From: Pseudarthrobacter psychrotolerans
GTDB taxonomy: Bacteria; Actinomycetota; Actinomycetes; Actinomycetales; Micrococcaceae
Assembly (NCBI RefSeq): GCF_009911795.1
Contig: NZ_CP047898.1
Location: 682,001 to 746,000 of the forward strand
DNA length: 64,000 bases
Direction: 5' to 3'
Under the pieces are notes generated by a model. That model was not told the origin of the DNA. It did no database searches and worked only from the letters and a program-made list of their open reading frames with translations. The position numbers were made by a program, and so were the translations under genes. This document shows positions 6,689 through 44,923 of this stretch, piece after piece. Position 1 is the stretch's first letter, and each line of letters starts with the position of its first letter.

Positions 6689-6775
6689 ATGCGCAGACGG
6701 CGAGTTCCCTTCAACATCCCCGCACGGAAGGGTTTCAGATCCAGCTTCCTGGACCGGACCTCCTGCCCAGAAGAA
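6689..6775 (+). pseudogene. 5' part of a small ORF interrupted by the giant transposon
   Basis: ATG 6689 follows a good site (GAGAGGAAG, 5-nt spacing) and encodes 29 codons beginning MRRRRVPFN and ending PEE at the target repeat. If the transposon and one AAGAA copy are removed, the frame continues at 44924 for 41 more codons to a stop at 45047-45049, giving a 70-aa protein. I do not recognise a family. The continuous frame supports a real interrupted gene, but the right half overlaps another plausible gene on the opposite strand. Confidence 0.5.
6771..6775. repeat. left 5-bp target-site duplication of the giant Tn3 element (AAGAA)
   Basis: AAGAA lies directly outside the left inverted repeat, and the same five bases lie directly outside the right one (44919-44923). 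Tn3-family transposition makes 5-bp, often A+T-rich duplications. Confidence 0.9.
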
Positions 6776-6813
6776 GGGGTCTGACCTGCAGCGGAACAGT
6801 GGTTGGCGCTAAG
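6776..6813 (+). repeat. left 38-bp terminal inverted repeat (IRL) of the giant Tn3 element
   Basis: Begins GGGGTCTGACCTGCAGCGGA and ends GGCGCTAAG. It matches the reverse complement of 44881-44918 at all 38 positions. The GGGG start and 38-bp length are hallmarks of the Tn3 family. The resolvase stop codon lies inside it. Confidence 0.95.
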
Positions 6814-7417
6814 GATTCTGTCCCGGTGGCACGGTTCGGGGGTTGCTGGTTGGGAGGTGGCGGTAGATGGACGCGCGGGAGACGCCGAGCGCTTTAGCGA
6901 TCTGGGTGGGACTTTCGCCTTTGGCCTGTCTGGCCCGGGCGGCTGAGAGGGTATCGGTATCCATGACTGTTGGGCGCCCGCCGGTGCGGCCTTGGGCCCG
7001 GGCGGCTGCGAGGCCGGCCATGGTTCGTTCGTGGATCATGTCGCGCTCGAGTTCGGCGAACGCGGCCATCATGACGAAGAAGAATTTCCCTTCTCCGGTC
7101 GGGTTGTAGGTCCCGGTGAGGGTGCCGGTGAGAATCCGCAGGCCGACTCCCTGGTCGTGGAGGCTATCGGCGATGGTGAGGACTTCTTTCACTGACCGGC
7201 CGAGGCGGTCCAATTTCCACACGCACAGGGTGTCTGTCGGACGGAGATGGTCGAGGGCTTCGGCGAGCCCTGGGCGGGCGGTGGCGCGGCTGGAGATTTT
7301 GTCTTCGAAGATCCGGCCGCAGCCGGCCGTTTTGAGGGCGTCTCGTTGGAGTCGGGCGTCTTGTCCGTTGGTGGAGACGCGGGTGTAGCCGATGAGATCG
7401 AAATGTTGGGTCGCCAT
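6809..7417 (-). CDS. tnpR: serine recombinase / resolvase of the Tn3 element
   Basis: A 202-aa small serine recombinase that would resolve Tn3 cointegrates at res. The nucleophile Ser is in IGYTRVSTNGQD. Other family features are VWKLDRLGRSVKEV, the E-helix segment FFFVMMAAFAELERDMI and a C-terminal Hin-type HTH (SPTQIAKALGVSRASIYRHL). The start ATG 7417 is used; a TTG nine codons earlier would run into the res dyad. No strong Shine-Dalgarno sequence is visible. The stop lies within IRL, as in many compact transposons. Identical residues recur in the second recombinase at 7858-8826, but the two are clearly different genes. Confidence 0.9.
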   Translation of the reverse strand: MATQHFDLIGYTRVSTNGQDARLQRDALKTAGCGRIFEDKISSRATARPGLAEALDHLRPTDTLCVWKLDRLGRSVKEVLTIADSLHDQGVGLRILTGTLTGTYNPTGEGKFFFVMMAAFAELERDMIHERTMAGLAAARAQGRTGGRPTVMDTDTLSAARARQAKGESPTQIAKALGVSRASIYRHLPTSNPRTVPPGQNP

Positions 7418-7430
7418 TTGTCTACTGTCG

Positions 7431-7483
7431 CACAACCGTCTCACAACACCGGTATCCGCCGAGCTGTTGTGAGATGGGTTGTG
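7431..7483. promoter_or_regulatory. res-like inverted repeat upstream of the resolvase
   Basis: An 18-19-bp imperfect inverted repeat: left arm 7431-7448 (starts CACAACC), right arm 7465-7483 (ends GGGTTGTG). It sits just upstream of the resolvase start, where Tn3 resolvases bind res and repress their own promoter. The junction of the nested element (7487-7494) is only 4 bp further on, so the rest of a three-subsite res may have been displaced. Confidence 0.6.
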
Positions 7484-7486
7484 GAC

Positions 7487-7494
7487 GGTTTGGT
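7487..7494. repeat. left copy of an 8-bp direct repeat (GGTTTGGT) flanking the nested element
   Basis: The same octamer sits at 38548-38555, immediately outside the inverted copy of the IS end. The arrangement (repeat, TGTGACTGTT..., ...AACAGTCACA, repeat) is that of a target-site duplication. Confidence 0.6.
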
Positions 7495-7557
7495 TGTGAC
7501 TGTTCGTTCGGAATGGCGGTTTTTTCGCAGTCCGGTTTGGCGGTTTTTTAGCTGATT
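7495..7557 (+). repeat. IS/transposon end, copy 1 (left)
   Basis: Starts TGTGACTGTTCG and contains two roughly 23-bp tandem sub-repeats centred on GGCGGTTTTTT, the arrangement expected for transposase-binding sites. It ends in the 3' codons of an ATPase gene remnant. The reverse complement of 38487-38547 matches over almost the whole length (one substitution and a 2-nt length difference). A more diverged version lies at 40524-40580. Confidence 0.75.
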
Positions 7558-7822
7558 CCGATGACGAGGGTTGAGCGTGCTGCCTCGATGACGTCGTCGG
7601 TGATGGTGCTGAGTTCGTTGATTTTCATGACCGTTCGATTTGGGTGAAGAGCCGGTCGATGAGGCGGAAGTTGCCTCGGGTGATCCGCGCGCCTGCGGCG
7701 ATGGCCTGGGCATCGGTGAAGTCTTCCGGGTCCAGGGTCTGACCGAGTTTGTGCCATCGGCGCTCCAGGACGAAATTCAGTTCTTCCTGGGCGAGTGGGG
7801 GTCGCCGTAGTATCGAGGACAA
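7548..7822 (-). pseudogene. C-terminal remnant of a TniB/TnsC-type transposition ATPase, frameshifted
   Basis: The reading frame from 7822 gives ARITRGNFRLIDRLFTQIER, the typical end of the AAA+ domain of TniB-like transposition ATPases, then hits a stop at 7625-7627. Shifting by one base continues as MKINELSTITDDVIEAARST and ends LVIGIS at 7548. The N-terminal two-thirds, including Walker A and B, is missing. One deleted base near 7628 explains the shift. The gene end runs directly into the IS end at 7495-7557, so it belonged to that element. Its transposase is not in the window. Confidence 0.75.
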
Positions 7823-7857
7823 ATCGGGCGGATATGGCTGGGTGGTAACCCGGCAGT

Positions 7858-8826
7858 TCAGTCGTGTCGGGTGCTCGGGTTGAGCATGGCGAAGTCGGCG
7901 TGGGCTTGGTCAATGGCTTCGGGGTAGGCCTGACGTTTGTCGTGTTCGGTGAGCGCCCGGTAGATGCTGGCCAGGCTGGGGTTGCGACCCTTGCGTTTGC
8001 CGGTGGGGATGATCAGGTCAGGGCGGATGTCATTGAGGGACTCGCCGTTCTTGCGGCGGCGCAGCACGGTGTGCAGCATGTCGTGGGTGATGACCGGTGG
8101 GCGTCCGCCGTGGTTTCCTTTGCGGGCGGCGGCGTTGAGGCCCTCGAGGGTGGCTTCGCGGATGTTCTCGCGTTCGGTTTCGGCCATCGCGGCGAAGAAC
8201 GCGAACAGCACCCGCCCGGTGCCGGTCGGGTCGTGGATCCCGGTGAGCGGCCCGGCGAGCATTTCCAGTGCGATGCCGTGTGCGGTGAGGTGATCGGCCA
8301 GTGCGGTGAGCTCGGCGGAATCTCGCCCGAGGCGTTTCATCTCGTAGACGGTGAAGATGACCCGGCAGTGCGGGGCGTGGGCCTTGATCTGCCGGGCTGC
8401 TTCCAGCGCGGCCTCGAACTTTGGGCGGACCCGCACGCGGGTGGAGATTTTCTCGGCGAAGATCTTTTCGCGCGGGATGCCGTGCGCGGCCAGCGCATCC
8501 AGCTGGGACTGGAGTTCCTGGGTCAGGTGGGAGCAGCGGGCATAGCCGACGCGGATATCCGCACTCGGCGTGTCTGCGGGGATTGGTGTCGGCGGCGGCG
8601 TGCCCGGCCGCCACGGCTGGCCGGGACCGCGGTCGCCCGGGGTCGGCACGCGCAGTTCCTTCGCAAGTCGGGGGACTTTGGTGAACCGGCCCGTGTGGTA
8701 GGTGGAGGCGACCGCTCCGGAGCGGGACCGGCACGGCGAGCCGGGCTGGACTTCGCAGCGGGGGCACCGGTGTTGTTCGACCTCATCGGCGTCGGAGGGG
8801 GCGCTGGCTCCGGGTTCGCTCCTCAT
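7858..8826 (-). CDS. serine recombinase with N-terminal zinc-finger-like domain
   Basis: A 322-aa protein. Residues about 20-46 carry C-P-R-C, then C and a downstream H (pattern CPRCEVQPGSPC...YHTGR), which resembles the small DNA-binding zinc finger found in actinobacterial phage and mobile-element proteins. A Pro-rich linker follows. The resolvase catalytic domain starts at about residue 90 (IRVGYARCSHLTQELQSQLD, with Ser in ARCS; KRLGRDSAELTAL; AFFAAMAETERENIREAT). The C-terminus has GNHGGRPPV and an HTH-like tail. It lies beside the ATPase remnant and may have belonged to the same element. A site-specific recombinase is certain; its target is unknown. Confidence 0.85.
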   Translation of the reverse strand: MRSEPGASAPSDADEVEQHRCPRCEVQPGSPCRSRSGAVASTYHTGRFTKVPRLAKELRVPTPGDRGPGQPWRPGTPPPTPIPADTPSADIRVGYARCSHLTQELQSQLDALAAHGIPREKIFAEKISTRVRVRPKFEAALEAARQIKAHAPHCRVIFTVYEMKRLGRDSAELTALADHLTAHGIALEMLAGPLTGIHDPTGTGRVLFAFFAAMAETERENIREATLEGLNAAARKGNHGGRPPVITHDMLHTVLRRRKNGESLNDIRPDLIIPTGKRKGRNPSLASIYRALTEHDKRQAYPEAIDQAHADFAMLNPSTRHD

Positions 8827-9180
8827 CCCGAAATTCTCTCACAAACATTTCTTAGAAGTCGGCCCGCGCCTTCTTGAGTGAGAACGGGTTCTGAGAAGAA
8901 CTCCGGCCTTCGCCGCTCAGCCGGGGCGCATCGTCGATCGCTTTCTCAAAATCGGGCGTTTGCGCGAAGAGGTACTCGTCGCGCTCATTAAGACATCACC
9001 CTTCGAGTCAGCCGCACACCACGAGAAGTCTGCCGAGTCACTGGAGACATTGGGTGGAACGAAAACCAAGTCCGTGGCCGACTAGCCGCTGCCAGCAGCG
9101 AGGGTACCCGCCCCAGCACGGACGTCACCCTGGGCAAGGGCGGGAGCCGCGGGTTACTGGGCCACAAGTGCATGTGCCGC
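8827..9180 (+). other. intergenic stretch with a possible gene 3' remnant
   Basis: A + strand frame from about 8909 to the stop at 9084 reads FAAQPGRIVDRFLKIGRL and ends KSVAD. It looks protein-like but has no start and no family I can name. It may be the tail of a gene lost at the recombinase boundary. Nothing else is evident. Confidence 0.3.
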
Positions 9181-11035: not shown

Positions 11036-11818
11036 ATGCCAAAGCCCGATATCGCCCCAGGTGATCCCTGCTGGATTGATCTCATGACCTCCGATCCCGG
11101 GAAGTCGCGTGAGTTCTATACCCGCCTTTTCGGCTGGACCTACGAAACCGGTGATGAGGAAATATACGGCGGTTACATCACGGCCTTCGCCGGGGGCGCT
11201 CCGGTGGCCGGCATGATGAAGAACGACGGCCAGTCCGGTTATCCGGACGTGTGGACCACCTATCTGCGTGTAGAAGACATTAGCGCGGCGGCCGAAGCAG
11301 TCGTCGCGGCCGGTGGGCAGGTATTGATGCTGCCCATGGAAGTTCCGGACCAGGGCCACATGGCGATGTTCAGCGACGCAGGAGGTGCAGCCTTCGGTGC
11401 CTGGCAGTTCGGCGGCCACACCGGGTTCCAGCTCAAAGGCGAGCCCGGCGCCCCGTTTTGGCATGAACTTCACACCCGGAAGTACGCACCCTCGGTGAAG
11501 TTTTACCAGGACGTTTTCGCCTGGGACACCGCAGTCGTGAGCGACAGTGACGACTTCCGGTACATGACGCTCGGATCCGGAGAACACTCACGCGCCGGCA
11601 TTATGGACGCTTCGTTCTACCTCCCCGACGAAGTTCCGTCGAACTGGCAAATCTACTTCGGGGTGGAGAGCGCCGACGCCACGGTGGAAGCCGCCAGGGC
11701 TCTTGGCGCCCAGGTGATACATCCCGCCGAGGATTCGGCGTTCGGCCGCATGGCTACGCTGACAGATCCCACGGGTGCGGTTTTCAAGATCGCCCAACGA
11801 CCTGACCCGGCTGCCTGA
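11036..11818 (+). CDS. VOC family protein with two glyoxalase domains
   Basis: A 260-aa protein with two vicinal-oxygen-chelate modules. The first (about residues 7-125) starts GDPCWIDLMTSDPGKSREFY and continues LFGWTYETGDEE. The second (about 135-255) starts GAPFWHELHTRKYAPSVKFY and continues DVFAWDTAVVSD. Both end in a DPxGAxF-like strand (DAGGAAFGAW, DPTGAVFKIA). The paired arrangement is common in actinobacterial VOC proteins such as the hydroxylase-like 27 kDa antigen type. The substrate is unknown. A site CAGGAG lies about 6 nt before the ATG. Monocistronic. Confidence 0.9.
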   Translation: MPKPDIAPGDPCWIDLMTSDPGKSREFYTRLFGWTYETGDEEIYGGYITAFAGGAPVAGMMKNDGQSGYPDVWTTYLRVEDISAAAEAVVAAGGQVLMLPMEVPDQGHMAMFSDAGGAAFGAWQFGGHTGFQLKGEPGAPFWHELHTRKYAPSVKFYQDVFAWDTAVVSDSDDFRYMTLGSGEHSRAGIMDASFYLPDEVPSNWQIYFGVESADATVEAARALGAQVIHPAEDSAFGRMATLTDPTGAVFKIAQRPDPAA

Positions 11819-11959
11819 CCACCGCCAGCCCTCGGCAGACACCACGTCCCCCGGTCCCGGCGTGTCATGCAGCCAAACGGGCCGGCAGCATCTGGACCGG
11901 GGTATGTAGGGGCGGCTTGTGAAAAAGTGAAATATCCAACGCTGAGGTTTTGCTGTGGG

Positions 11960-12245
11960 GCGCAATGGCCCGTACTGGCTGGCCCGGGCCAGGGGTAGTC
12001 GCCGGTGAGGTTGATGTGTTCCCAGCCCAGGGGCGAGAGGAACCGCAGGAGGTCATGACCCGTCGTACCGCCGTTGCTGTTCAGGTGGTGATGGTGCGGT
12101 CGAGGTAGACGGTGTTCCAGAGCATGGTGGCGGCGGTCAGGTTGAGTCCAGTTCATGCATCCAGGGCAAGACGGTTCTGACGCGGGTAAGCGCTGAGCTT
12201 GCGCATCATCAGCGACGCGGTCCGGTCCCAAGGGCAGGGCAGTCA
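11960..12245 (-). pseudogene. relic of a second Tn3-family transposase (C-terminal end)
   Basis: Three decayed segments of a TnpA C-terminus appear in order on the - strand. RKLSAYPRQNRLALD (about 12165-12215) is followed by an internal deletion. Then comes GLNLTAATMLWNTVYLDRTI (about 12085-12150), ended by a stop. After a frameshift, LLRFLSPLGWEHINLTGDY follows (about 11995-12052). These are diagnostic Tn3-transposase motifs. The relic is distinct from the near-complete TnpA at 41.8-44.9 kb and shows an older Tn3 insertion in the same cargo. No inverted repeat was found for it. Confidence 0.8.
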
Positions 12246-12289
12246 TTGGTGTTGACCGTGGCGGCGGGCAACTGCTCCAGTCTTGAGTT

Positions 12290-12318
12290 GCCCCCCAACT
12301 TGAGACTGGGGGGCTTTC
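12290..12318 (+). terminator. possible terminator hairpin
   Basis: Stem GCCCCCCA/TGGGGGGC (12290-12297, 12307-12314) with a 9-nt loop, followed by TTTCC. It lies 54 bp beyond the 3' end of the large surface-protein gene, but the short T-run is on the + strand, so its direction of action is unclear. Confidence 0.35.
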
Positions 12319-12371
12319 CGTTGCGTGAGCACCGACGGCCGGCTCAACGTCGGAGATGCGCGGCGCCGGTG

Positions 12372-15300
12372 TCAGGGAACCGCGATTGGACCGGCGACAG
12401 GGCTGTTGCCGATGTTGCCGGTGAGGTCGGTCTGGGTTGCCTTCGCGTACAGGGTCGGGATCGTGCCGAGCGTCACCGACGTTGTTGACCATCCGCCGGT
12501 TGTGGCGTTGATGGTCGGTGTCAGCGTTGCCCTGGTGTTTCCCGCCGCGCAGGGGAACACGTTGACGGTGCAGAAGACCACGGTCACTGTCGTGGAATCT
12601 CCCGGTCCGAATCCGGCGGTGCCGGTGGCCGTCGCGGTCTGTGATGCGTCCGGCGCGAAGCTGGTGATGACTACGGTCGGGGCGGTGTTGTCGGTGTAGG
12701 TGACGGTGCGGTCGGTGTAGGTGGCGGCGGCGCTGAGGTTGCCGGCGATGTCCTGCGCTGCGCTTGCGGCGAGAGATGGGATGACGGTCCCGGTTTTTGT
12801 CATGCCGCTGGCGGCGACGTTGTAGGTTGCGCCGGCGCCGCTGATGGCCGAGGTGCTGGCGAGGGCGGTGCCGGTGTAGGTGATACCGGTACTGAAGCCG
12901 GTCACTGGCTCGCTGAACGTGGCGGTGAAGTTGATCGGTGACGTCGTGGTCGGGTCGGCCTGGCCGGCGGCCTGGTTTAGCGTCACCGTGGGAGCGATCG
13001 TGTCGATCGTCACGGTGGTACCGGTTGAGGCCGGGCCGGCGTTGCCGGTGGGGTCGGTAGCGGTCGCCGTGATGGTGTGCGTGCCGTTGGTCAGGGTGCT
13101 GCTGGCAATCGAGTAGCTGCCGGTCGCCGCCACCACGCTGCCGACCTGGGTGACCCCGTCGAACAGCCTGACGGTGGACCCGGTTTCGGCGGTTCCGGTG
13201 AACGTCGGCGTGGTGACCTTTGTGATGCCGTCGGTCGATGAGGAGCCGGTGTCGCTCGCCGCTGCCAGGAAGGGCGCCGTGGGCGCGAGGGGTGCTGTGG
13301 TGTCACTGTAGGTGACGGTGTTGTCAGTGAAGGTGGCGGCGGCGCTGAAGTTGCCGGCGATGTCCGTGACCTTGGCGGCGGCGATCGCGGGGATAACGGT
13401 ACCGGTTTTTGTCATGCCGGTGGCCGCGACGTTGTAGGAAGGTCCTGTGCCGCTGATGGTCGAGGTGGTGGCGAGGGCGGTGCCGGTGTAGGTGACGCTC
13501 GCGCTGGTGAAGCCCGCCACCGGCTCGCTGAAGGCCGCCGTGAAGTTGATCGGTGACGTTGGGGTCGGGTCGGCCTGACCGGTGGCCTGGTTGATCGTCA
13601 CGGTCGGGACAACGGTATCGATCGTCACGGTCGTGGCCGGTGCGGTGGGCGCGGCATTACCGGCGACGTCGGTAGCTATTGCGGTGATGGTGTGGCTGCC
13701 GTTGGTCAGCGTCGCGGTCGTGGCGGTGTAGGCGCCGCCGGAGGCGGTGACCGGAGTCCCGGTGATGGTGGCCCCGTCAAACAACGTGACGGTGTCGCCC
13801 GGGCCGGCCGTGCCGGTGAATACCGGGGTGGTGGTCTTGGTGATGCGGTCGGTGGACGAGACGCCGCTGTCGCTCGCCGCGGTCAGCGTCGGCGTTGACG
13901 CGGATGTGGTCGGCGCGATCGTGTCGATGGTGAGGGTGCCTGCGGCCGATGCCGGTCCGAGGTTGCCGGCGATGTCCGTGGAGGTGGCCGTCAGGGTGTG
14001 GTTGCCCTCCGCCAGGGTGGACGAGGTGATTGATGACGTCGTCGTTGTCGTGGTGACGGCGCCGATCTGGGTGGCCCCGTCAAAGAGGGTCACGATGGCC
14101 TTCGACTCGTTCGTGCCGGTGATGACTGGTTTGGTGATCTTCGTGATGCCGTCGGTACTGGACTTACCGGTGTCGCTCGCTGCATTGGCTTTGGGAACGG
14201 AAGGGGCGGCGGGAGCCACCGTGTCGACGGTGACGGAGATGGCCGTGGACAGGGGGCCGAGGTTGCCGGCGACATCGGTGTTCCTGGTGGTGATGCTGTG
14301 CACCGCGCTGGTCAACGTGGTGGAGGTGATCGAGTACGCTGTCGTCACCGCCGTGGTGCTGCCGAGCTGCACGAGCGCGGTGGAGGGTCCTTCGTACAGC
14401 GTCACGAGGTATCCGGCGGTGGTTGAGCCGGTGACCGTGGGGGTGGTGACCTTCGTGATCTTGTCGGTGGCTGACCTGCCGCTGTCGCTGGCTGCGGTCA
14501 GCACCGGAGTTCCAGGCTTGGCCGGGGCCGTGATGTCGATCGTGATGCTGGTGCTGGCCGATGCCGGCCCGGTGTTGCCGGCGGCATCGGTTGCCTTGAC
14601 CGTCATCGGCTTTACACCGGTATTCAGCGCCGTGGACGTCACGGAATAGGCGCCGCCGGCGGCAACCGCGGTGCCGACCACGGTCGTGCCGTTATATAGG
14701 GTGACGGTGGCGCCGGACTCGGCCGTCCCGGTGAACGTCGGCGTGGTGACGTTCGTGATCCGGTCGGTCGGGGAGGACCCGCTGTCGCTGGCAGCAGTCA
14801 GGACCGGCGCCGGTGGCGAGGCGGGCGCTGCCGTGTCGATCGTGACGGCGGTGCCTGCCGACGCCGCTCCGACGTTACCGGCGGGATCGGTGGCCTTCGC
14901 AGTCATCGTATGGGCGGCACCGGTGAGCGTGCTGGAGACGATGGTGTAGGCGCCGCCGGCGGAGGTACCGCTTCCGACCGGGGTTGCCCCGTCGTACAAG
15001 GTGACGGTGGCACCGTCCTCAGCCGTCCCGCTGAACGTGGGGGTCGTGACGTTCGTGATCCGGTCGGAGGAGGAGGATCCGCTGTCGCTTGCAGCGGCCA
15101 GCACCGGCGCGGACGGCGCGGCAGGCGCGACCCTGTCGATCCGCACGAACACCGATCCGGTCTGGCTGACGCGCTGCAGGAGATCCTTGGCGTAGTAGGT
15201 GACCGTGTGGATCGCGTCCCCGGACACGGACACCGCGGCCGTTGCGCCCAGGACCGTGACGGGGGATCCGGAGTCGATGGTGTAGGTGATGGAAAGGATT

Positions 15301-15893
15301 CCGGCGCCGCCGGAGGCCGACAGGTTCACCGTGACGGGGCTTGTGTTGTTGTAGCCGTTGCCGTTCGGGGCGGGGGAAATCGAGGTCACGTTGATGCTCG
15401 GCAGGCTGGAGTCGTTCACGACCGTCACGCTGTTGCCTGGCGGGCTGACCGCGGTCCAGCTCCCGAAGAGGGCAGTGACAGTGTAGTGGTAGATGCCGTC
15501 CGTGACGCCCAGGTCGTTGCAGCTCAGGGACGGGGTCGGCACCGACGGTGAGGTGCCGCACGCGGGGAAGGGTGCACCGTCGCTGTTACGTATCCGGGTG
15601 ACGTAGTAGCCGGAGGCTGTCTGTCCGGTGGCCAGTGTGGCGCCGGACCAGTTCACCGCCACCGTGCTGCTGTTGATCGGAGCAGACGCGAGAACAGTGG
15701 AGGGAGCATTCAAGGTTCCCGTGGCGGCCGCGGAGCCGCCGCCGCCGGTGTTCCCCCAGTACCCCCACGCCGCAGCGCCGAGCGACAGGGCCGCGGCGAC
15801 ACACACCAGCACCAAGCACATCCGGCGCACGCCAAGGACCGCCCGGGACGTCCGGGCGCTCATCGTGGCTAAGGGAATCGCGGTGACTGGCAC
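12372..15893 (-). CDS. large secreted surface protein with bacterial Ig-like repeats
   Basis: A 1173-aa protein with an N-terminal signal/anchor helix (MCLVLVCVAAALSLGAAAWG, about 25-44) followed by YW and a Gly-rich patch, as in SipW-processed envelope proteins. After an Fn3-like region (about 60-250) come six roughly 95-aa Big-type repeats. Each opens with a variant of AASDSGSSSTDRIT and closes with DxAGNxGPAS...TIDTxAP. Two different modules, opening with SPINFTAAFSEPVAGF-like sequence, follow repeats 5 and 6. The C-terminus lacks an LPXTG motif or membrane helix. It is probably an adhesin or surface-layer component; its substrate is unknown. The start could be GTG 15893 or ATG 15863. The next - strand gene upstream (15981-16472) is a likely operon partner. 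Confidence 0.85.
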   Translation of the reverse strand: MPVTAIPLATMSARTSRAVLGVRRMCLVLVCVAAALSLGAAAWGYWGNTGGGGSAAATGTLNAPSTVLASAPINSSTVAVNWSGATLATGQTASGYYVTRIRNSDGAPFPACGTSPSVPTPSLSCNDLGVTDGIYHYTVTALFGSWTAVSPPGNSVTVVNDSSLPSINVTSISPAPNGNGYNNTSPVTVNLSASGGAGILSITYTIDSGSPVTVLGATAAVSVSGDAIHTVTYYAKDLLQRVSQTGSVFVRIDRVAPAAPSAPVLAAASDSGSSSSDRITNVTTPTFSGTAEDGATVTLYDGATPVGSGTSAGGAYTIVSSTLTGAAHTMTAKATDPAGNVGAASAGTAVTIDTAAPASPPAPVLTAASDSGSSPTDRITNVTTPTFTGTAESGATVTLYNGTTVVGTAVAAGGAYSVTSTALNTGVKPMTVKATDAAGNTGPASASTSITIDITAPAKPGTPVLTAASDSGRSATDKITKVTTPTVTGSTTAGYLVTLYEGPSTALVQLGSTTAVTTAYSITSTTLTSAVHSITTRNTDVAGNLGPLSTAISVTVDTVAPAAPSVPKANAASDTGKSSTDGITKITKPVITGTNESKAIVTLFDGATQIGAVTTTTTTSSITSSTLAEGNHTLTATSTDIAGNLGPASAAGTLTIDTIAPTTSASTPTLTAASDSGVSSTDRITKTTTPVFTGTAGPGDTVTLFDGATITGTPVTASGGAYTATTATLTNGSHTITAIATDVAGNAAPTAPATTVTIDTVVPTVTINQATGQADPTPTSPINFTAAFSEPVAGFTSASVTYTGTALATTSTISGTGPSYNVAATGMTKTGTVIPAIAAAKVTDIAGNFSAAATFTDNTVTYSDTTAPLAPTAPFLAAASDTGSSSTDGITKVTTPTFTGTAETGSTVRLFDGVTQVGSVVAATGSYSIASSTLTNGTHTITATATDPTGNAGPASTGTTVTIDTIAPTVTLNQAAGQADPTTTSPINFTATFSEPVTGFSTGITYTGTALASTSAISGAGATYNVAASGMTKTGTVIPSLAASAAQDIAGNLSAAATYTDRTVTYTDNTAPTVVITSFAPDASQTATATGTAGFGPGDSTTVTVVFCTVNVFPCAAGNTRATLTPTINATTGGWSTTSVTLGTIPTLYAKATQTDLTGNIGNSPVAGPIAVP

Positions 15894-34607: not shown

Positions 34608-34634
34608 CCGCTCGCAAGGGATCCTTTACCGGGC
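34608..34634. repeat. GGATCC-centred palindromic repeat, copy 6
   Basis: CGCTCGCAAG, GGATCC (34619-34624), TTTACCGGGCGG. Lies between the convergent LysM and acetyltransferase genes. Confidence 0.65.
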
Positions 34635-35072: not shown

Positions 35073-35286
35073 TTTGAAATCGTGTCATGCCCGATCCGCA
35101 CGAACAATGCCGTCTGCAACATCAACTTGGGCTCGAATCGCCACTCTGGATTAGGTACGTCAGGGGAACCTTCACCGAAACACTCGCCATCCGAAGTCGA
35201 TCCCGTCCCCGGTCAGAGTGAAACGGTCTCCACTCTTCAGGATGGAGGCCGTAGTCTCGAACCGAGCGGGCTTCGTAGGTCGGTTC

Positions 35287-36126: not shown

Positions 36127-36363
36127 ACAGTGCAGGCTAGAGGAGGTGTCCATAATTCGAGCAAAGATGTCTCACATCGTGGTTAGCCTGCCGACGATTC
36201 CGACGCACCGTTGCAGGTGCCCGTTAGCCGGTCGTCCACCGGACGCCCCGGTGCTGCCCCTGGGCCTTCTATACATCCGCGCCTTTCCGCCCTTGCCGGA
36301 TTCCCATATACCCTGCCCGAATTAATGCCCGGTCAAGGTGCCTTATGCGCTACAGTCCGAAAC

Positions 36364-36402
36364 ATGCTCATCGGCTACGCCCGCTGCTCCACCAGCAAGC
36401 GT
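36364..36402 (+). pseudogene. N-terminal relic of a serine resolvase
   Basis: Reads MLIGYARCSTSKR, the classical first residues of small serine recombinases including the nucleophile Ser, then loses similarity. No resolvase domain follows, so it is a truncated fragment. Evidence is short, hence low confidence. Confidence 0.5.
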
Positions 36403-36459
36403 TCGAAGGTCGGGCTACGTGTGGATGCTGGCAACAACCAGGGAGCCCACACCGGTGCC

Positions 36460-37356
36460 TTAGGATTTCTTCGCGACGTACCGCCTGGCGTGAACGACCA
36501 GTCGGGTAGTCAACGGCGAGGCGCTGTTGAGGAGCCAGACCAGTACCGTCGGCATGGGAAGGGATACCCCGGCAAACGGGCGCCACACAACTCCGGGCGG
36601 ATCACCTGGTACCACCTGATGCGGCGTTTTGAATGACACGCCAAGGCCGGCAGCCACCAGGCTCATGGTCGTCGCAATGCTCGGGGACCAGCGGTGTGGC
36701 CCGGGAATCAATCCGCCGTCCATTAGTAGGCCCAATACGCGTTCACGAACGTCCGGATCGCCGTCGCGCTGTAACCAGATCAGAGCCTGGCCATTCAGAT
36801 CGGCGGGGGTGATCGCTGCCAGCTTTGAAAGCGGGCTGCCGGACGGAAGAGCAACCCCCATCGGCTCGGTGTCCAGGGTCAGCACGCCGAGCCGTTCGTC
36901 GGAGGGTGGCACGGCGTGAATGAAGACAGCGTCGAACTCGCCCTCAAGAAGCTTCTGGACCCCTTCTCTTGCTGCCGCAGGTTTAACGTCTACCTCCGGT
37001 GCATTCTCGCCTGAACCCAGGCCGCTGAGCAGCTCGGCCAGCAGCGGGTACGCGACGCCCACGGCCACGCCCAGTTTGAGGGTGCCGAGCGGAGGACTGC
37101 GTAACTCTTCCATTGCTGCCGCCGCAGCATCGTGAGCCTCAATGATGTGCACAGCCTCCTCCCGGAGGCGTCGGCCTGCGTCCGTGAGCGCAACGTGATT
37201 GTGGGTCCGGTCCAAGAGCCGGAGCCCCAAGGCTTTTTCCAAGGCTTTGAGCTCCTGGCTCAGTGCAGGCTGGGCGATGTGGAGCCGGGCGGCGGCTTTA
37301 CCGAAGTGCAGTTCCTCGGCCAGTACAAGGAATCGCCGGAGTTGGCGGAGTTCCAT
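36460..37356 (-). CDS. LysR-family transcriptional regulator
   Basis: A 298-aa protein. The N-terminal HTH is MELRQLRRFLVLAEELHFGK followed by AAARLHIAQPALSQELKALE. The C-terminal effector-binding domain has GTLKLGVAVGVAYPLLAELL. It is divergent from an alpha/beta hydrolase gene with 111 bp between starts, so it probably controls that gene, the usual LysR arrangement. Inducer unknown. Confidence 0.92.
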   Translation of the reverse strand: MELRQLRRFLVLAEELHFGKAAARLHIAQPALSQELKALEKALGLRLLDRTHNHVALTDAGRRLREEAVHIIEAHDAAAAAMEELRSPPLGTLKLGVAVGVAYPLLAELLSGLGSGENAPEVDVKPAAAREGVQKLLEGEFDAVFIHAVPPSDERLGVLTLDTEPMGVALPSGSPLSKLAAITPADLNGQALIWLQRDGDPDVRERVLGLLMDGGLIPGPHRWSPSIATTMSLVAAGLGVSFKTPHQVVPGDPPGVVWRPFAGVSLPMPTVLVWLLNSASPLTTRLVVHARRYVAKKS

Positions 37357-37467
37357 GGCTCATCATAAGAATTTGTGATCGTCCTAGTCCATAGCGGTCT
37401 TGGACGGCAGGGTCCGTCCGGGCGTCCAATGAAGGGGAAAGGTAAACCGCTCGGAAAGGTGAAGACA

Positions 37468-38268
37468 ATGAGCACAATTGATGGCGCCGCCCTGGTAAAG
37501 GCCGGCGGCGCTACGTTCCACGTTGACATGGCAGGAGATGGCACGCCGGTTCTCCTGGTCCCCGGCGCTGGAGGCGACGCCAGGCAATACGCCGAACTGG
37601 CCCAAGTATTGGCGCAAAACCACACAGTCATCGCCTATGACCGCAGGAACAACGGACGCAGTCCGCAGCAGCCGGACTGGTCGGAGACCTCAGTGGAACA
37701 GCACGCGGGCGACGTTATTGCCTTGTTGGAAACGCTCGGGACGCCACCATGCGTCGTATTCGGCAACAGCACCGGGGCACTGATAGCGCTGGCCGCTGCC
37801 CTGAAGGCCACCGGGCGTTTTACCGGCGTCGTGCTGCACGAGCCGGCGCTGCTGGGCGTTTTGGCCAGTCCTGATGACGCCATGGCCACGGTGCAGCCGG
37901 TGATTGCGGCAGGCGTGGAGGCCGGTGGACTTGCCGGCGGCGCCGAGGCCTTCGTCCGGTTCGCGGCAGGCGATGCCGTCGCTCTGCTGCCGCCGGACTT
38001 TCTCGAAGGCCTGCGGACAAACGCCAGGGTGCTGCTGGAAGCGGAGTTTGGAGCATTCGCGTCATGGCGGCCCGAGCCGAAGGCACTGGCCGAAATGAGC
38101 ATGCCGCTGACCATACTCAGTGCCGAGCAGACAGCGCCATTCTTCCTAGAGGCTGCCCAGTGGATAGCCTCCCATGCCGGAGTCAGCCGCCGGGCGGTAC
38201 CTGGCGGACACATGGGCTTCCTTAACCACCCGAGGGAAATCGCTGAGGAAATCGACGCGATGTTGTAG
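37468..38268 (+). CDS. alpha/beta-fold hydrolase
   Basis: A 266-aa protein. GTPVLLVPGAGGDARQY holds the oxyanion-hole region and VVFGNSTGALIAL the nucleophile elbow with Ser in GNSTG. The catalytic His is in PGGHMGFLNHP. ATG 37468 is chosen because GGAAAGGTGAAG lies just before it; the frame is open further upstream. Likely an esterase or lactonase; substrate unknown. Divergent LysR gene is the probable regulator. Confidence 0.9.
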   Translation: MSTIDGAALVKAGGATFHVDMAGDGTPVLLVPGAGGDARQYAELAQVLAQNHTVIAYDRRNNGRSPQQPDWSETSVEQHAGDVIALLETLGTPPCVVFGNSTGALIALAAALKATGRFTGVVLHEPALLGVLASPDDAMATVQPVIAAGVEAGGLAGGAEAFVRFAAGDAVALLPPDFLEGLRTNARVLLEAEFGAFASWRPEPKALAEMSMPLTILSAEQTAPFFLEAAQWIASHAGVSRRAVPGGHMGFLNHPREIAEEIDAML

Positions 38269-38486
38269 TCGATCCGTAGACTCGATCGGGCAAAGGGGCT
38301 GTTTTACATGCACACGCCAAGGCCCGCCTTCATGCGCGATTCCGAGCAATTCGCAGCCACTACTACAGTCACGTTTGATATGGGGCTGTTGTATCGGCGT
38401 CCTAACCGTACTTTCCGCTCGTAGCGTGCTGCTAGACCTACCCACCGAGAGTGTCCCGCAAACGAACGCGTACCCTCGTCAACGGA

Positions 38487-38547
38487 AATCAGCTAAAACC
38501 GCCAAACCGGACTGCGAAAAAACCGCCATTCCGAACTAACAGTCACA
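38487..38547 (-). repeat. IS/transposon end, copy 2 (right, inverted)
   Basis: Reverse complement starts TGTGACTGTTAGTTCGGAAT and matches 7495-7557 nearly throughout, including the last codons of the ATPase gene. Facing orientation makes the pair a candidate composite-element boundary. Confidence 0.75.
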
Positions 38548-38555
38548 GGTTTGGT
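38548..38555. repeat. right copy of 8-bp direct repeat GGTTTGGT
   Basis: Directly outside the right inverted end; matches 7487-7494. Confidence 0.6.
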
Positions 38556-38755
38556 GTCGGCGCGTTGCTTGGGCGCGGGGTCGTCTCAGAACTGGCCGTT
38601 TTCGACACGAAGTCTGGACAGACAGTTGGCCATTGTCGGATCTGCATCATCAGTGATGCGGCGATCGGTCACCGGTACGCTTCGATGAAGATCCATTGAG
38701 CGCGAAGAAGGGCAAGCTCCGTGAACCCTTTTGCGGCCAACGGGCAATACATAGT

Positions 38756-39352
38756 GTGAGCACAGACAACGACATCATCAGGCGGTCCCGGGACAGCCCC
38801 GCAGTTTTCAGGGAGTTGTACGACAGACACGCTGCAGTCATCTACCGATACGCCGCCAGAAGGGCCGGCGACTTCGCCGCCGACGACGTCACGTCCGAAA
38901 CCTTTCTGGTCGCCTGGGAGCAACTGGAGGCCTACGACCTTGACCGGGAGGATGCCCGGCCCTGGCTTTTCGGCATCGCCACCAATCTGCTCAGGCGCCA
39001 TCATCGGGCCGAAGCCAAGATGCTGAAAACCGCGGCGAAAGCGGCTTCACGGGAAGCCATGGCCGACGATTCGGATCGGATAGCGGCCCAGGTGGACGCC
39101 ACTGCGGCAACCGGGCGAATCGCCCGCACACTCAAGAGCATGGCGGCCATCGACCGGGAAACGCTGCTGCTTTACGCCTGGGCGGACCTGACCTACGAGG
39201 GCATCGCCCTGGCCATGGACGTTCCTGTGGGAACCGTGCGGTCCCGCTTGAACCGTGCCCGCCGGGCCCTGCGAACCCAGCTCAACCTCGAAATACTTGA
39301 TGAAACGGAGAACGACCATGGACGACTTGCAGCTGCTCCGCGAAATGCGTAG
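38756..39352 (+). CDS. ECF-type RNA polymerase sigma factor (second module)
   Basis: About 198 aa from GTG 38756. Region 2: FRELYDRHAAVIYRYAARRA, TSETFLVAWEQLEAYDLDRE, WLFGIATNLLRRHHRAEAK. Region 4: LLLYAWADLTYEGIALAMDV, PVGTVRSRLNRARRALRTQL. An upstream TTG at 38696 is possible. The 3' end overlaps the next gene by 34 bp, so the CU044_5270-like membrane protein is its likely partner. This sigma and partner type is common in Arthrobacter and Streptomyces. Confidence 0.92.
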   Translation: MSTDNDIIRRSRDSPAVFRELYDRHAAVIYRYAARRAGDFAADDVTSETFLVAWEQLEAYDLDREDARPWLFGIATNLLRRHHRAEAKMLKTAAKAASREAMADDSDRIAAQVDATAATGRIARTLKSMAAIDRETLLLYAWADLTYEGIALAMDVPVGTVRSRLNRARRALRTQLNLEILDETENDHGRLAAAPRNA

Positions 39353-40379
39353 CGACATCGGCTCCGCACCGCCGGCCACGTTGGCCCGCGGCCGCAACAA
39401 ACTCATGTCAAAGATCAGTTCCAACTCCCGTCCCGAGGCAACGATCATCACGCACACCCCAGCCAACGTGAGCCCGATCCGTTTCCGACGCCGTGTCCTG
39501 TTCGCTTCGGCAGCTGCAGCTCTGCTCGTGGCGGGAATCGTAGTGGCAGATGTCGTCAGGCCCAGCGGTCCGGGAGCAACCGCCGAAGCGGCCGAGATCC
39601 TGAACAACGCCGCAGCAGCAACCATCCAGACCGCCGACCCGGTGGTGGGACCCGGCCAGTACCTGAAGATTGATACCACTGCCGTCTACACCACGGGCGT
39701 CGCATTGGGGACCCTGGAAAGGGCGGCCGTTCCGTGGAGTGGCTGGACAAGTCCTCCGACCAGCTCTACATCCCCGCAGACCACGCAGCCGAATGGATCT
39801 GGAACCGCGAAGCCCGCATCCCGACGACGTTCTTCAGCGAGGAAGCCAAGGCAGAAGCGACCAAATACCAGCAGTCCCAGTCTGACAACCCCTCAGGACG
39901 GGAGAACTCCTGCGGGCATCGGGGGGAACTTCTACGGAGAACAGCGGCTGCTGCTCGCCGGCTTGCCCCTGGAGGAAGGCGTGAAGAACCTGCCCCGCGA
40001 CCCACAAGCCCTCCTTGACGCGATTCGACAGCGAGGCAAGCAAGGCAGGCCGGAAGCCGAAACGCTGGAAACCATCGCGGCGGCACTGCGGACGGGAGTC
40101 GTCCCGGCAGATCTGCGCGCTGCACTGTACAAAGCGGCCGCGCTCATTCCCGGAGTCACCGTCGTAGACAGGGAAGCGAACCTTGACGGCAAGGTAGGCA
40201 CCGCGATCGGGATCGAGCATCCGAACAGAGGAACCCGGACGGACATCATCATTGACCACGCCACCGGGCTGCTGATCGGAGAACGAGTGGTTACGCTGAC
40301 ACCCGGCGAGACCTTCCCAGCAGGAACAGCGACCGCTTGGACCTCCGTACGGACGTCCGTGGTGAACACCGCACCCTAA
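39319..40379 (+). CDS. CU044_5270-like ECF-associated membrane protein, with two compensating frameshifts
   Basis: ATG 39319 (MDDLQLLREMRSDIGSAPPA), one membrane helix (VLFASAAAALLVAGIVVADV, about 60-79), then an extracytoplasmic domain. The annotated frame is open to 40379. Between about 39722 and 39912, however, it reads low-complexity RRRSSARKPRQKRP, whereas the +1 frame reads VEWLDKSSDQLYIPADHAAE and AKAEATKYQQSQSDNP, which is clearly the original protein. So an insertion near 39720 and a deletion near 39910 cancel out. It may be real or a sequencing artefact. Function: sigma-factor partner of unknown mechanism. Confidence 0.75.
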
Positions 40380-40394
40380 GCTACTGACGACCAG

Positions 40395-40422
40395 GGTGGC
40401 CGCGCTACGCGGCCACCTCTTT
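40395..40422 (+). terminator. rho-independent terminator after the ECF operon
   Basis: 10-bp stem GGTGGCCGCG/CGCGGCCACC with a CTA loop, followed by TCTTT. 15 bp beyond the stop at 40379. Confidence 0.75.
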
Positions 40423-40468
40423 GTCAACACTCACAGGGTCATCGTTCAACCAGAGTTGCAACAGGGCA

Positions 40469-40506
40469 GAGACGGCCGGTCACCATTGGGGGTGACCGGC
40501 CGTCTC
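40469..40506. terminator. strong hairpin, possible terminator
   Basis: 16-bp perfect stem: GAGACGGCCGGTCACC, loop ATTGGG, then the complementary arm to 40506. No U-run follows, so it may be a bidirectional stop or a structured repeat. Confidence 0.5.
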
Positions 40507-40523
40507 CTGACTGCTTTAACTCC

Positions 40524-40580
40524 ACGGCAAACCGCCACTCTGAACTGCCAGTTAACCGCCATTCTCGGCTAACAGTCACA
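40524..40580 (-). repeat. diverged third copy of the IS end
   Basis: Ends CGGCTAACAGTCACA and holds two AACCGCCA sub-repeats, as in copy 2, in the same orientation. Inner sequence differs, so it may be the other (transposase-side) end of the same IS type or a relative. Confidence 0.55.
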
Positions 40581-40893
40581 CCAGCCTGAGGACTTGGACC
40601 ATGATGTTCTTAGCGCACCCTTCCGTGCATTCTCACCGTGCGGGGTCTGAGCGCTGCTGCGCTGTCTGCACTCGACAGCGGTCCCTACGCGGTCAATCCG
40701 GAGACAGGCCTGTTCGGGGGCACTAGCGGTCTAACGCGGCTGTTGGGAGCAACGATTTAGCCCAAATACCCGGCAGGAATCCAGAACTCCGGCCTGTTTT
40801 AGGTTGTTGCGGCACGGTCAATAGACTGACTAAGCCTTCGGCAGACACCACCATGCCCGGACTAGATCCGAAACCGAATTGGGGACCCACGTT
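40581..40893. other. gene-free stretch before the mannosyltransferase
   Basis: About 310 bp. No ORF or clear signal apart from a GGGGA site (40881-40885) before the TTG start at 40894. Confidence 0.3.
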
Positions 40894-41625
40894 TTGACTG
40901 CAGCAGATCCGAAAATCACCATCGTTGTACCGACCTACAATGAGCGGGAAAACCTACCTCTGCTCATCGCCCAGCTGAACTCACTCGGGATCCCGGACCT
41001 CAATGTACTCGTTGTGGATGACAATTCTCCCGACGGCACCGGAACGGTCGCTGACCTGTTGGCACGAGAATCCGGTGGGACGGTATCCGTCCTGCATCGG
41101 AAAGTGAAGGATGGGCTCGGCAGAGCCTACGTGGCCGGCATGACCCGCGCTTTGGCTGGCAACGCAGATATCATCATCCAAATGGATGCGGACCTGTCCC
41201 ACCCTGTTTCGGCGATCCCCACCATGATTGACCGGATTCGCACATCTGGCGCTGCGCTGGTCATCGGCTCGCGCTACGTTCCAGGCGGATCCACTGCTTC
41301 AGCATGGCCCTGGCACCGCAAAGCGCTCTCCGCTTGGGCGAACTTCTATGTAGGTGTGATCCTCGGTTTAAAAGTGAAGGACTCCACGGCGGGATTCAAG
41401 GCCTGGACCGCCTCTTCCCTCCACCAGATTGACGTGGCATCGATCAGAAGCGACGGCTACTCCTTTCAAGTTGAGATGAACTACCGGGCAGCCCAGCGAG
41501 GCCTGGAAATTGCCGAGGTACCCATTCACTTTGAAGAGCGCGTGGAAGGGACCTCCAAAATGAATCTCGGTGAGCAGCTCGAGTCTGCTCGCACACCATG
41601 GAAACTACGCCTCCAGAAATGGTAG
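40894..41625 (+). CDS. polyprenol monophosphomannose synthase (Dpm1/Ppm1-like GT2)
   Basis: About 243 aa, GT-A fold. ITIVVPTYNERENLPLLI is the GDP-mannose site. VLVVDDNSPDGTGTVADLLA and IIIQMDADLSHPVSAIPTMI carry the DxD motif. GYSFQVEMNYRAAQRGLEIA and PIHFEERVEGTSKMN are typical of Dpm1. It makes polyprenyl-phosphate mannose, the donor for lipoglycan and protein mannosylation at the membrane. TTG 40894 has GGGGA 8 nt upstream; TTG 40879 is the alternative. Lacks the C-terminal Lnt domain of Ppm1. Confidence 0.9.
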   Translation: MTAADPKITIVVPTYNERENLPLLIAQLNSLGIPDLNVLVVDDNSPDGTGTVADLLARESGGTVSVLHRKVKDGLGRAYVAGMTRALAGNADIIIQMDADLSHPVSAIPTMIDRIRTSGAALVIGSRYVPGGSTASAWPWHRKALSAWANFYVGVILGLKVKDSTAGFKAWTASSLHQIDVASIRSDGYSFQVEMNYRAAQRGLEIAEVPIHFEERVEGTSKMNLGEQLESARTPWKLRLQKW

Positions 41626-41760
41626 TTTCGATTTCCCTTCCCCAAACGGGACGCTGGGCCATGGTCTTGCGTGCGCTGGGCTCCTAGATCGGCTGGGAAG
41701 TAGCTACGTGACAGCAGCACGCTACAAGCGTCAGGAACCGGTTGATTGTGGACATCGCGT

Positions 41761-44700
41761 CTATTCGTCGTCGGTGGGTGTCGTTGGATCACGCAGCGGC
41801 CGGAGGGTGTCATCTGAGAGCGTGGTGAAGGCGTATCGGCCGTGGACATTGATGTGTGAGTCTCCCAGGGGAGAGAGTCTTGCAATATCGGCGTCGTGGA
41901 TGGGATGCCCCTGCTCCCGCAGGGCGGTCAGGGCGGCGTCGATGTAGCGGGTGTTCCACAGGATGACCGCGTTCAGGACGAGGCCGAGTGCGCCGAGCTG
42001 GTCTTCCTGGCCGTCGCGGTATCGCTGACGTAGTTCCCCGCGCTGGCCGTAGAAGATTTTTCGGGCCATGCGGTGGCGGGATTCCTGGACGGTGAGTTGA
42101 ACGTGGATCGAGCGGCGGTAGCTCTCGTCATCCGGGTCATACATGGCAAGGAGATGCAGCGTCTTCGCGGCGCGGCCATATTCGGCGAACGCTGCTCCGA
42201 GCGGGGTGGGGTTGCCGTCGCGGCCGAGCATCCGCAACAGGTCGTAGCCGGCGACCAAACCGCTGTGCAGGGACCCCACGACGCGCAGCATGTCGTCCCA
42301 TTGGACCCGGATGCGCTCGGCGGAGAGTTTGTTCGTCGCGACGGTGTTCAGGGCGCCGTAGTCAGCGGCCCGCCCGCCGGGCACGGTGAGGCGCCAGAGC
42401 CGCTGGTCGGGCATGTCAGCCAGACGCGGGCTGAACTGGTAGCCGAGCAGGCGGAAGAGCCCGAACACGATGTCGGAGTAGGAGGCGGTGTCCGTCGCGA
42501 TCATCTGCGGTGCGGGTCCGCCGTCACGGTTGAGGATCACATCCAGGACATGAAGAGAGTCGCGCATCGTGCCGGTCACCACGACGGCCCCGATGCCGGA
42601 GACCTGATCGTTGATGGCATTGAGCCAGGTCACGCCGCGGCCCTGACCGAAATAGTGCGGATTCGGGCCGGCGTCCAGGGTGCGGACCGGGACAACGAAC
42701 CGTAACCCGTCGACGGAGGCCACCAGCCCGCCGCCCCACGCCTGAGCCGTCGGAACGCCGGCCTGGGCGTCAATGAGACGGGCGTTGGCGGCGGCCAGGG
42801 TATCGCTGCGCAGGTAGTTCTGCGCCACGTGCGAGAGCCGGCGCCGGCTCAAGGCCGGATGCCCGGGTTTGATCACAGGGGCGAATCCGAGGTTGCAGCC
42901 TTCAGCGACCAGCACCGCGGCCATCGACGTGGCCAGATCAGCGAGCCGGGAACCGGACGCCTGCCCCGTCATGCCCATGTGCGTGAAATCGTTTAGATAA
43001 CCGGTCCAGGCGTTCACCTCGAGCAGCACATCCGGCAGATCCACCCGGGGCAGCATCCGCTCAACGGTGTCCCGCAACACGGTCAGCGTGTCCGGTTCCG
43101 GCACCGGTTCCAACCGCGCCTGATGCACCCGTGTGCGCCCATCCGCGCCTGTTTCCAAACGAATCGGGGCGGCGACTGAGGCCCCTTCAGCCGGGCGGAT
43201 CCGGGCGGCGAGACCCGTGTAGGCTGTATCGAGCCGTGCCGCAAGGTCGCTGAGATGGGTTTCAACGGGCTCGTGCAACCGCAGCGCGGTGAGAACATCG
43301 GGTCGGGCCTGTTCCCACGCCTCACCATCAAGGAGGCGGGCCCGCGGGTCACCCCACCGGGCAGAACCCACCGCATACACATCCCGGCGACGCAGCGCCC
43401 GGTGCAACGATTCGAGCACGCACAGCGTGTAAGCCCGGTGATTCACGATCTCATCCGGCGATTCCGGGCAGGGAAACACCAGCCGCCGCCACGACCCGGT
43501 CACCACCTCGTCCACGATCTCTGACCGGGTAACCCGTTTGCGTCCAACCAGGCACCCCAGGCCTCGCACGGCGGTCAACAGCGGAGTACCCGCCGGCGTT
43601 GCAGATAATGGCAGGACGTCAGCGATCACCGTCAAAAAAGGTCGAACGGTGGCGTATCGCTTCACCAGTTCCGACTGCCCCTGGTCCGCGTCCTCCCCGG
43701 CGTCGGGGGCCAGCTCCTCGACCGTCGCCACCGCGGCCATGAGCCGCTCCCGCGGGATGGCCGCCTGCAACCGAGTCCACGCCTCAGCCGGGCCCAGCCC
43801 AGCGCTCTCGACCTCGGCACATTCCAGCATCACCTTTGCAGCCGCAGCCAACGTCACTGACGCCCGCCTCAGCTGTGGCAAGGACCGTATCCGGTCCTTG
43901 GCCGACGCTCGCACAGCCGGCCCGATGAGCTTGGTCGCCATCAGAACCGAGAACAAATCAAGTGCATCATCGATCGCGGATACCCGCAAAGCCCCGGCGG
44001 TGGCAACCAACGTCGCCCAACGGCGATGCTCCGGCATGCGCCGCAGCATCGCCGCGTCCGATGACAGACCCTGGCGAGCCAGCACGTCAACGCGCCCTGC
44101 CGGAATCTCGCTCAGATCAACGCCGCCAGCGCCCAACCCGGCGATCTCCGCAGCGCGCTCCAGTGCCCGGACCATCTCCGGCCCGACGCCCGGGTCGGGG
44201 CACGACGCAATCTCTCCAACCCTGACGACCGAGAATCTGCTGGCACCGTGAGCAAACCATCAAGACCACGACCAAGCTCCGCCGGCACCCGTCCCGCCAA
44301 CACCGAATACAGCCGGTCACCGGCTTCGCCCCTGACCTCAGCGACGAGCCTGGCCAACACGCTCACACCCGGCAACAGAACGCGCTCCGCGCGAAGCCAT
44401 GCCACGCCCTGATCGAAGAGTTGGGTCGGTCGCTCCGCCCGCGTCCACGCGCGGGCGGCCAGGAAGCTCCTGAATTCGGCGGCAGTCTCGGGCGCTGACA
44501 GCCGCCGGTACCCATAGGCCTGTGCAATCTCCCAACTGTGCTCGTACGGCGTCTTCGACCGCTCTGCGTAACTCCCCAAGACGGAACCGCCGACGATCCC
44601 GAGTTGCGTTGCCACGAAATCGGCCACCGACCCCGGTACCGCCACCGGATCGTCAAGGAACGTCCCCAGGAACCGCAGAGTCCCCAGCTGCACCCCAAAT

Positions 44701-44852
44701 CCCAGACGGTTACCCGCGCCACGACGGCGACCAACCAACTCCAGATCCCGGTCATCGAGGAAGAAGAACCGTTCCAGCTCAGCCCGCGAAACCGGACCCG
44801 CAAACTGCCCATACACGGCTACCTGATCATCACTGAGAAACTCAACTGGCAT
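41761..44852 (-). pseudogene. tnpA: Tn3-family transposase TnpA, one frameshift
   Basis: About 1030 aa in two frames. The N-terminal frame from ATG 44852 (MPVEFLSDDQVAVYGQFAGP) shows the DUF4158-type domain (EIAQAYGYRRLSAPETAAEF). Near 44200 (GCCCCGACCC) one C seems missing. The second frame runs DPGVGPEMVRALERAAEIAG to the end at 41761, with the DDE domain (LVASVDGLRFVVPVRTLDAG, QMIATDTASYSDIVFGLFRL, and Glu in TVQESRHRMARKIFYGQRGE). The ending RLSPLGDSHINVHGRYAF is diagnostic for Tn3. It lies 29 bp inside the right inverted repeat. If the shift is real the element may be unable to move on its own. Confidence 0.9.
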
Positions 44853-44880
44853 GACACCAACGTAAAGCCAACCCCGAAGG

Positions 44881-44918
44881 CTTAGCGCCAACCACTGTTC
44901 CGCTGCAGGTCAGACCCC
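44881..44918 (-). repeat. right 38-bp terminal inverted repeat (IRR)
   Basis: Reverse complement begins GGGGTCTGACCTGCAGCGGA; identical to IRL at all 38 positions. Confidence 0.95.
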
Positions 44919-44923
44919 AAGAA
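44919..44923. repeat. right AAGAA target-site duplication
   Basis: Matches 6771-6775 directly outside IRL. Confidence 0.9.

Follow-up and report, generated by a model that had tools for sequence, protein, structure and literature searches.

Structure of the Locus

The 64,000-nucleotide stretch analyzed here (contig NZ_CP047898.1 of Pseudarthrobacter psychrotolerans, positions 682,001 to 746,000; hereafter the window, whose numbering is used throughout) contains a 38-kb mobile element located between pntB and a glycogen-debranching-enzyme region. Two pairs of inverted ends, each pair with its own target duplication, delimit an outer element (A) and, within it, an inner element (B). The 38-kb element is very probably a nested pair, in which a Tn552-type transposon (B) has entered the proposed res region of a Tn6517-like transposon (A), most likely by res-site hunting. 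The features of the locus are listed in Table 1.

Table 1. Features of the nested element and its target sites (window coordinates; ORF, open reading frame).
Feature	Position	Strand	Remarks
5-bp target duplication AAGAA of A, left copy	6771-6775		one copy only in the G022 empty site
Terminal inverted repeat of A, left, 38 bp	6776-6813	+	
tnpR of A, serine resolvase	6809-7444	-	Resolvase and HTH_7 domain match
10-bp inverted arms upstream of tnpR, proposed part of res	7439-7448, 7465-7474		putative function
8-bp target duplication GGTTTGGT of B, left copy	7487-7494		
Inner transposon B, 31,053 bp, Tn552-type ends	7495-38547		ends and duplication
Left inverted end of B	7495-7572	+	starts TGTGACTG
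Remnant of tniB-like AAA ATPase gene	7551-7798	-	residues 188-270 of 270 only; frame change at 7631
Block with second serine recombinase gene	7798-8972	-	ORF 7858-8826; 88% to an Arthrobacter Hiyo8 plasmid stretch
C-terminal scrap of another Tn3-family TnpA	11986-12090	-	within ORF 11653-12492
1173-aa surface-type protein of bacterial Ig-like repeats	12372-15893	-	
GH26-like protein module	17029-18254	+	ORF 17071-18249; second copy (95% over 17029-18257) in own chromosome near C1:1790420
ABC transporter ATPase	19288-20298	-	
Sensor kinase and LuxR-type response regulator module	22194-24746	+	90% over 22194-24760 in G097
NAD(P)-binding (NmrA-like) protein and HxlR regulator module	24830-26301		94% over 24830-26308 in G109
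Sigma-70-type (ECF-like) factor	26360-27097	+	
Insertion sequence, 33-bp inverted repeats	31341-33003	-	DDE_Tnp_1_4 transposase, 31484-32878
LysM protein, rhodanese, LysR regulator, alpha/beta hydrolase	33539-38268		
Right inverted end of B	38472-38547	-	finishes CAGTCACA
8-bp target duplication GGTTTGGT of B, right copy	38548-38555		
Rest of conserved region upstream of tnpR (proposed res)	38548-38604		joined to tnpR side in G032 and Tn6517
Passenger region of A	39255-41625	+	ORF without Pfam match, 39255-40379; family-2 glycosyltransferase, 40879-41625
tnpA of A, broken	41761-44891	-	ORF 44112-44891, profile 2-203; ORF 41761-44175, profile 204-954
Terminal inverted repeat of A, right, 38 bp	44881-44918	-	
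5-bp target duplication AAGAA of A, right copy	44919-44923		one copy only in the G022 empty site

The Outer Element

The termini of A are identical at 38 of 38 positions on direct comparison, with the first mismatch at offset 38. No further match to this repeat exists in the window when up to 12 substitutions are allowed. AAGAA lies directly outside both repeats, the resolvase gene is near one end and the Tn3 transposase gene near the other, and the left repeat holds the stop codon of the resolvase gene (TAG at 6809-6811). An earlier note on this DNA had described the identical repeats, the AAGAA copies, both genes, and the stop codon, and each was recovered here.

The same note had suggested looking for an empty site and for the 38-bp repeat in related genomes. 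In the sister genome G022, the flanks of A are joined precisely and without a gap, with one AAGAA between them (93% identity to the window on the left and 95% on the right). This exact empty site indicates that A is a genuine insertion that postdates the divergence from G022, barring a precise loss of A in G022. The 38-bp repeat, with up to three mismatches, is present in four of 121 genomes of the genus, the own genome counted. The own genome (5.17 Mb, three contigs) has a third exact copy, at C1:3675654, adjoining a truncated tnpR. The sequence there (C1:3675654-3676070; loci L007 and L009) is 98% identical to window 6776-7191, also contains a 30-bp match to tnpA, and is a scrap of another A-like element in the chromosome.

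By its sequence, A is assigned to the Tn3 family as a Tn6517-like transposon of about 7.1 kb. It has a Tn3-type DDE transposase of about 1,000 residues (frameshifted here), inverted repeats of about 38 bp, and a 5-bp duplication. Its TnpR is 92% identical to that of Tn6517 over 192 residues (7417-6842). Positions 2-203 and 204-954 of the Tn3 TnpA profile NF033527 are matched by two ORFs in different frames, and the gene differs from the Tn6517 tnpA by one nucleotide in length. In a comparison of TnpA with plasmid records, the named matches were ISXc4 (43.5%) and Tn3 (approximately 41%) among 40 matches spaced evenly over the best 5000. The TnpA of Tn4430 was the sole PDB match.

The frameshift may be real or an assembly error. 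An error was considered because the spot sits amid short homopolymers and because the debranching-enzyme gene beside A (45374-47471, in two overlapping frames) also lacks a long single frame, both in the window (503 codons) and in G022 (344 codons).

The Inner Element

The tips of B, at 7495 and 38547, are inverted repeats of about 77 bp that both start with TGTGACTG, and the 8-bp duplication GGTTTGGT lies directly outside both. In the related genome G032, the sequence of window 7494 continues straight into 38548 (38548-38600, 53 bp, 91%). In a two-sequence search, Tn6517 likewise runs uninterrupted across this point (window 38557-38604, 81%, E 2e-8). The continuity of these two relatives, together with the ends and the duplication, identifies 7495-38547 as an insertion. 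With the 31,053-bp B and one copy of the 8-bp duplication removed, A consists of 6776-7494 and 38556-44918, a total of 7,082 bp. The earlier note had proposed a single, oversized Tn3 transposon carrying about 33 kb of cargo. The Tn3-family insertion with perfect ends stands, but 31,053 bp of it are a second transposon. A alone is of ordinary size, compared with 7,080 bp for Tn6517, although this close agreement is partly coincidence because the passengers of the two are unrelated.

Over its left 305 bp, B shares 94% identity with the tniB end of an element from plasmid 1 of Arthrobacter FB24. The genes of that element encode an AAA ATPase, a Mu-C transposase, and a resolvase, and its proteins match PF09299/rve and AAA_22. 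The left end is also 85% identical to sequences on the AT5 and YJN-5 plasmids. Queries with the FB24 proteins did not find TniA in the window, and the FB24 resolvase matched only the TnpR of A and the recombinase at 7798-8972. B thus has the ends and the duplication of a Tn552-type element, while genes for a Mu-C/rve transposase and a full AAA ATPase were not found. It is classified on sequence as a decayed, putatively non-autonomous relative of this type. A check of the recombinase block for its own terminal inverted repeats gave nothing convincing. The TG...CA ends and the 8-bp duplication had suggested that B might be IS21-like, an identity abandoned because the left end matches the tniB end of a Mu-C/AAA/resolvase element.

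In the proposed account, A inserted between pntB and the debranching-enzyme region and duplicated AAGAA. Before or after this, B inserted in the proposed res region of A, approximately 50 bp upstream of tnpR, and duplicated 8 bp. TniA/TniB-type proteins would most likely choose the resolvase-bound res, as for Tn552 and Tn5053/Tn402, with TniA presumably supplied to B in cis or in trans. The cargo modules would have been acquired separately.

The earlier note took the 38-kb element for one Tn3 transposon that had taken up chromosome-like cargo and recently jumped as a unit, a history we consider unlikely. The perfect outer ends, the AAGAA duplication, and the empty site agree with it. So does the state of B, whose ends and duplication are intact inside A while TniA is not found and TniB is broken; this decay hints at a long stay in A, which would favor A having received B before landing here. 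The empty site dates the outer insertion only and does not establish recent movement as a unit. The 31-kb block is bounded by ends and a duplication of its own, and in two relatives the sequence runs on across its position. Without the block A is of the same ordinary size as Tn6517, TnpA is frameshifted, and no second copy of the 38-kb composite was seen in the genus sample. Since TniA was not found and TnpA is in two frames, the composite is probably immobile unless it is served in trans. Both pairs of ends are intact, so such service could occur. Members of the Tn5053/Tn402 family with defective tni genes are presumably mobilized in trans (PMC7765201).

Resolvase Genes at the Ends of B-Type Elements

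B starts 51 bp from the tnpR ORF, within an upstream region conserved in A, G032, and Tn6517. We infer from its position and conservation that this region is res. The 10-bp arms within it are only suggestive, as 3 of 300 pieces of 120 bp drawn at random from the window have arms of this length. By position, B fits the res-hunter trait of insertion beside a resolvase gene. Res sites are documented hotspots for Tn552 (PMC3276174), and Tn5053 relatives that sit inside Tn3-family carriers are likewise documented to hunt res (PMC7765201). Among the open-licence titles listed (12 of 22 in one search and 8 of 5,372 in another), none concerned res hunting in Actinobacteria, and no open-licence paper combined "Tn552-like" with Arthrobacter.

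The FB24 element also adjoins a resolvase gene, which prompted a test of the neighbors of B-type ends. The first set comprised 40 ends (37 loci, both ends of B, and FB24), with the outer bases of L071 and L072 being the same. Seven of these have a resolvase gene within 200 bp outside: the left end in the window, FB24, G003, G047, G017, G120, and contig C3 of the own genome, where the gene faces the opposite way. The second set was gathered mainly via TniA. From its 43 loci, four without TniB and three with too little outside DNA were removed, leaving 36, of which L146 and L147 have the same outside sequence and L119 (the G003 element) and FB24 belong to both sets. A resolvase gene lies within 200 bp in 10 of the 36 (L119, L122, L125, L131, L132, L138, L153, L156, FB24, and Hiyo8). 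For comparison, the own genome has 22 resolvase-domain matches, so for a random site the chance that such a gene starts in the 200 bp to one side is approximately 0.1%.

Nine loci of the second set have at least 2 kb of outside DNA. Five of them have a resolvase gene within the first 200 bp (1.8 kb in total), compared with four genes in the other 45 kb; without FB24, the source of the idea, the count is four of eight. In addition, P. enclensis (L119) and AT5 share a 68-bp palindromic site (three differences), with an element on one side of it in the first and on the other side in the second, in opposite orientation. B-type ends thus adjoin resolvase genes far above the genome average, though most do not, which fits res-site hunting.

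Several points weigh against this account. Within 200 bp outside, 33 of the 40 ends in the first set and 26 of the 36 loci in the second have no resolvase gene. In L064, L065, and L067 the resolvase gene is instead 160-282 bp inside the end. Among the ten positive loci of the second set, L132 and L138 are fragments, and in L122, L125, L131, and Hiyo8 the interval from tniB to the resolvase gene shows no clear terminal TCACA. The excess was gauged only against the genome average and local outside DNA. B has no detected TniA and only a remnant of the ATPase, which leaves its ends and the tniB scrap as the basis of its classification. Lengths of the duplication also vary: 8 bp for B, 6 bp (CCGGCG) for the G003 element, and, for Tn552, 6 bp with 10 bp in some plasmids (PMC3276174).

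Chance, or a general richness of plasmid regions in resolvase genes, could also have placed a genuine B beside tnpR. Mobile regions are indeed rich in such genes and most B-type ends lack one, but the clustering in the first 200 bp of the nine loci, which persists without FB24, the palindromic site shared by two elements, and the documented Tn552 hotspots (PMC3276174) make this explanation improbable.

It is more doubtful still that 7495-38547 is DNA trapped by two independent Tn552-type ends in inverted orientation, for although the right end of B resembles the tniB side of the left end and further end-like sequences exist, the exact 8-bp duplication at precisely both tips and the two continuous relatives show that the pair acted as one insertion, and the single G003 element likewise has two such inverted ends with its 6-bp duplication. 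The end-like sequences are located at 40529-40580 (77%), within the passenger region of A, and at 16715-16766 (71%), and are possibly older solo ends.

Two other sets were seen in the own genome. A distant Tn552-type set (resolvase, TniA, and TniB; L161) is located at C1:763783-767269, approximately 18 kb past the window, with another resolvase gene lying about 150 bp outside its tniB. Contig C3 (L046 and L162) contains a broken Tn552-type element whose end lies approximately 140 bp from one resolvase gene, with a second such gene adjoining.

Cargo and Neighboring Sequences

B holds almost all cargo genes of the 38-kb element. Besides the genes in Table 1, the Pfam matches of the cargo include an acetyltransferase. 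The segment 16500-31300 was compared with 150 genomes of the genus, with the best two candidates taken for each. Among the matches listed, the own genome aside, none exceeds about 2.6 kb, and different pieces find their matches in different genomes. Plasmid matches to 14000-38600 came from two records, with one piece each; the stretch 31614-33003 is 95% identical to plasmid pASPHE301. We read the scanned part of the cargo as a mosaic of short, separately acquired chromosome-like modules and transposon scraps. Its chromosome-like nature, already pointed out in the earlier note, is borne out by the matches of its pieces to chromosomes of relatives.

A direct 56-bp repeat (21571-21626 and 33338-33393, 93%) matches both ends of a stretch of about 2.3 kb in G109 (L016, 841-3119), and its copies are insertion-sequence ends. 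About 520 bp at 21668-22190, bounded by inverted repeats of 38 bp (84%), look like a small non-autonomous element; a similar arm occurs at 28813-28839. The sequence at 36299-36400 resembles the start of a resolvase gene with its upstream DNA and is cut off by the LysR gene. Just past A, an IS21-type pair (IstB-like ATPase and Mu-C/rve transposase) is present at 48254-50577.

Significance and Comparison with Known Elements

What looked like a puzzling giant Tn3 transposon is resolved here into two precisely bounded insertions, and for one of these an empty site exists. Both kinds of element (Tn3 family and Tn552-type) are already known, and this is a further case with an unusually clear anatomy. 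It suggests that res hunting, described in the cited papers for staphylococci and Pseudomonas, also operates in soil actinobacteria, where it may load mobile carriers with ordinary chromosomal genes. We tentatively propose, at slightly less than even likelihood, that a widespread, undescribed lineage of Tn552-type res hunters exists in the Micrococcaceae. Its members would land in the res sites of plasmids and of Tn3-family transposons and there assemble large islands, made up of ordinary chromosomal genes (for regulators, surface proteins, and transporters) in place of resistance genes. If so, islands within the res of a carrier could move via the transposase of that carrier.

The Tn5053/Tn402 family, nested in Tn3-family carriers such as Tn6603, is described from Pseudomonas with tniABQ and 25-bp ends (PMC7765201). 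It has TniQ, which is not annotated beside the FB24 or AT5 sets. The staphylococcal prototype Tn552, like B, inserts beside a resolvase gene. It is approximately 6.5 kb long with a 6-bp duplication and ends of about 120 bp (PMC3276174), whereas B is 31 kb long with an 8-bp duplication and ends of about 77 bp, has no detected TniA, and carries chromosome-like cargo. The nearest Tn552-type elements are those of FB24 plasmid 1 and the Paenarthrobacter AT5 plasmid, with 94% and 85% identity to the end and tniB scrap of B, respectively. Such relatives encode a Mu-C transposase, an AAA ATPase, and a resolvase.

The closest relative of A is Tn6517, a Tn3-family transposon of the Antarctic Arthrobacter plasmid pA40H2 (PMC6305408). 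Unlike A, it has an intact TnpA and no inner transposon, and its passengers share with those of A just 48 bp beside res and one 23-residue match (E 8e-4). The two are alike in their 38-bp ends (one mismatch each), their 5-bp duplication, and their order of tnpR, passenger region, and tnpA, and they are 86% identical over tnpA and over the tnpR end.

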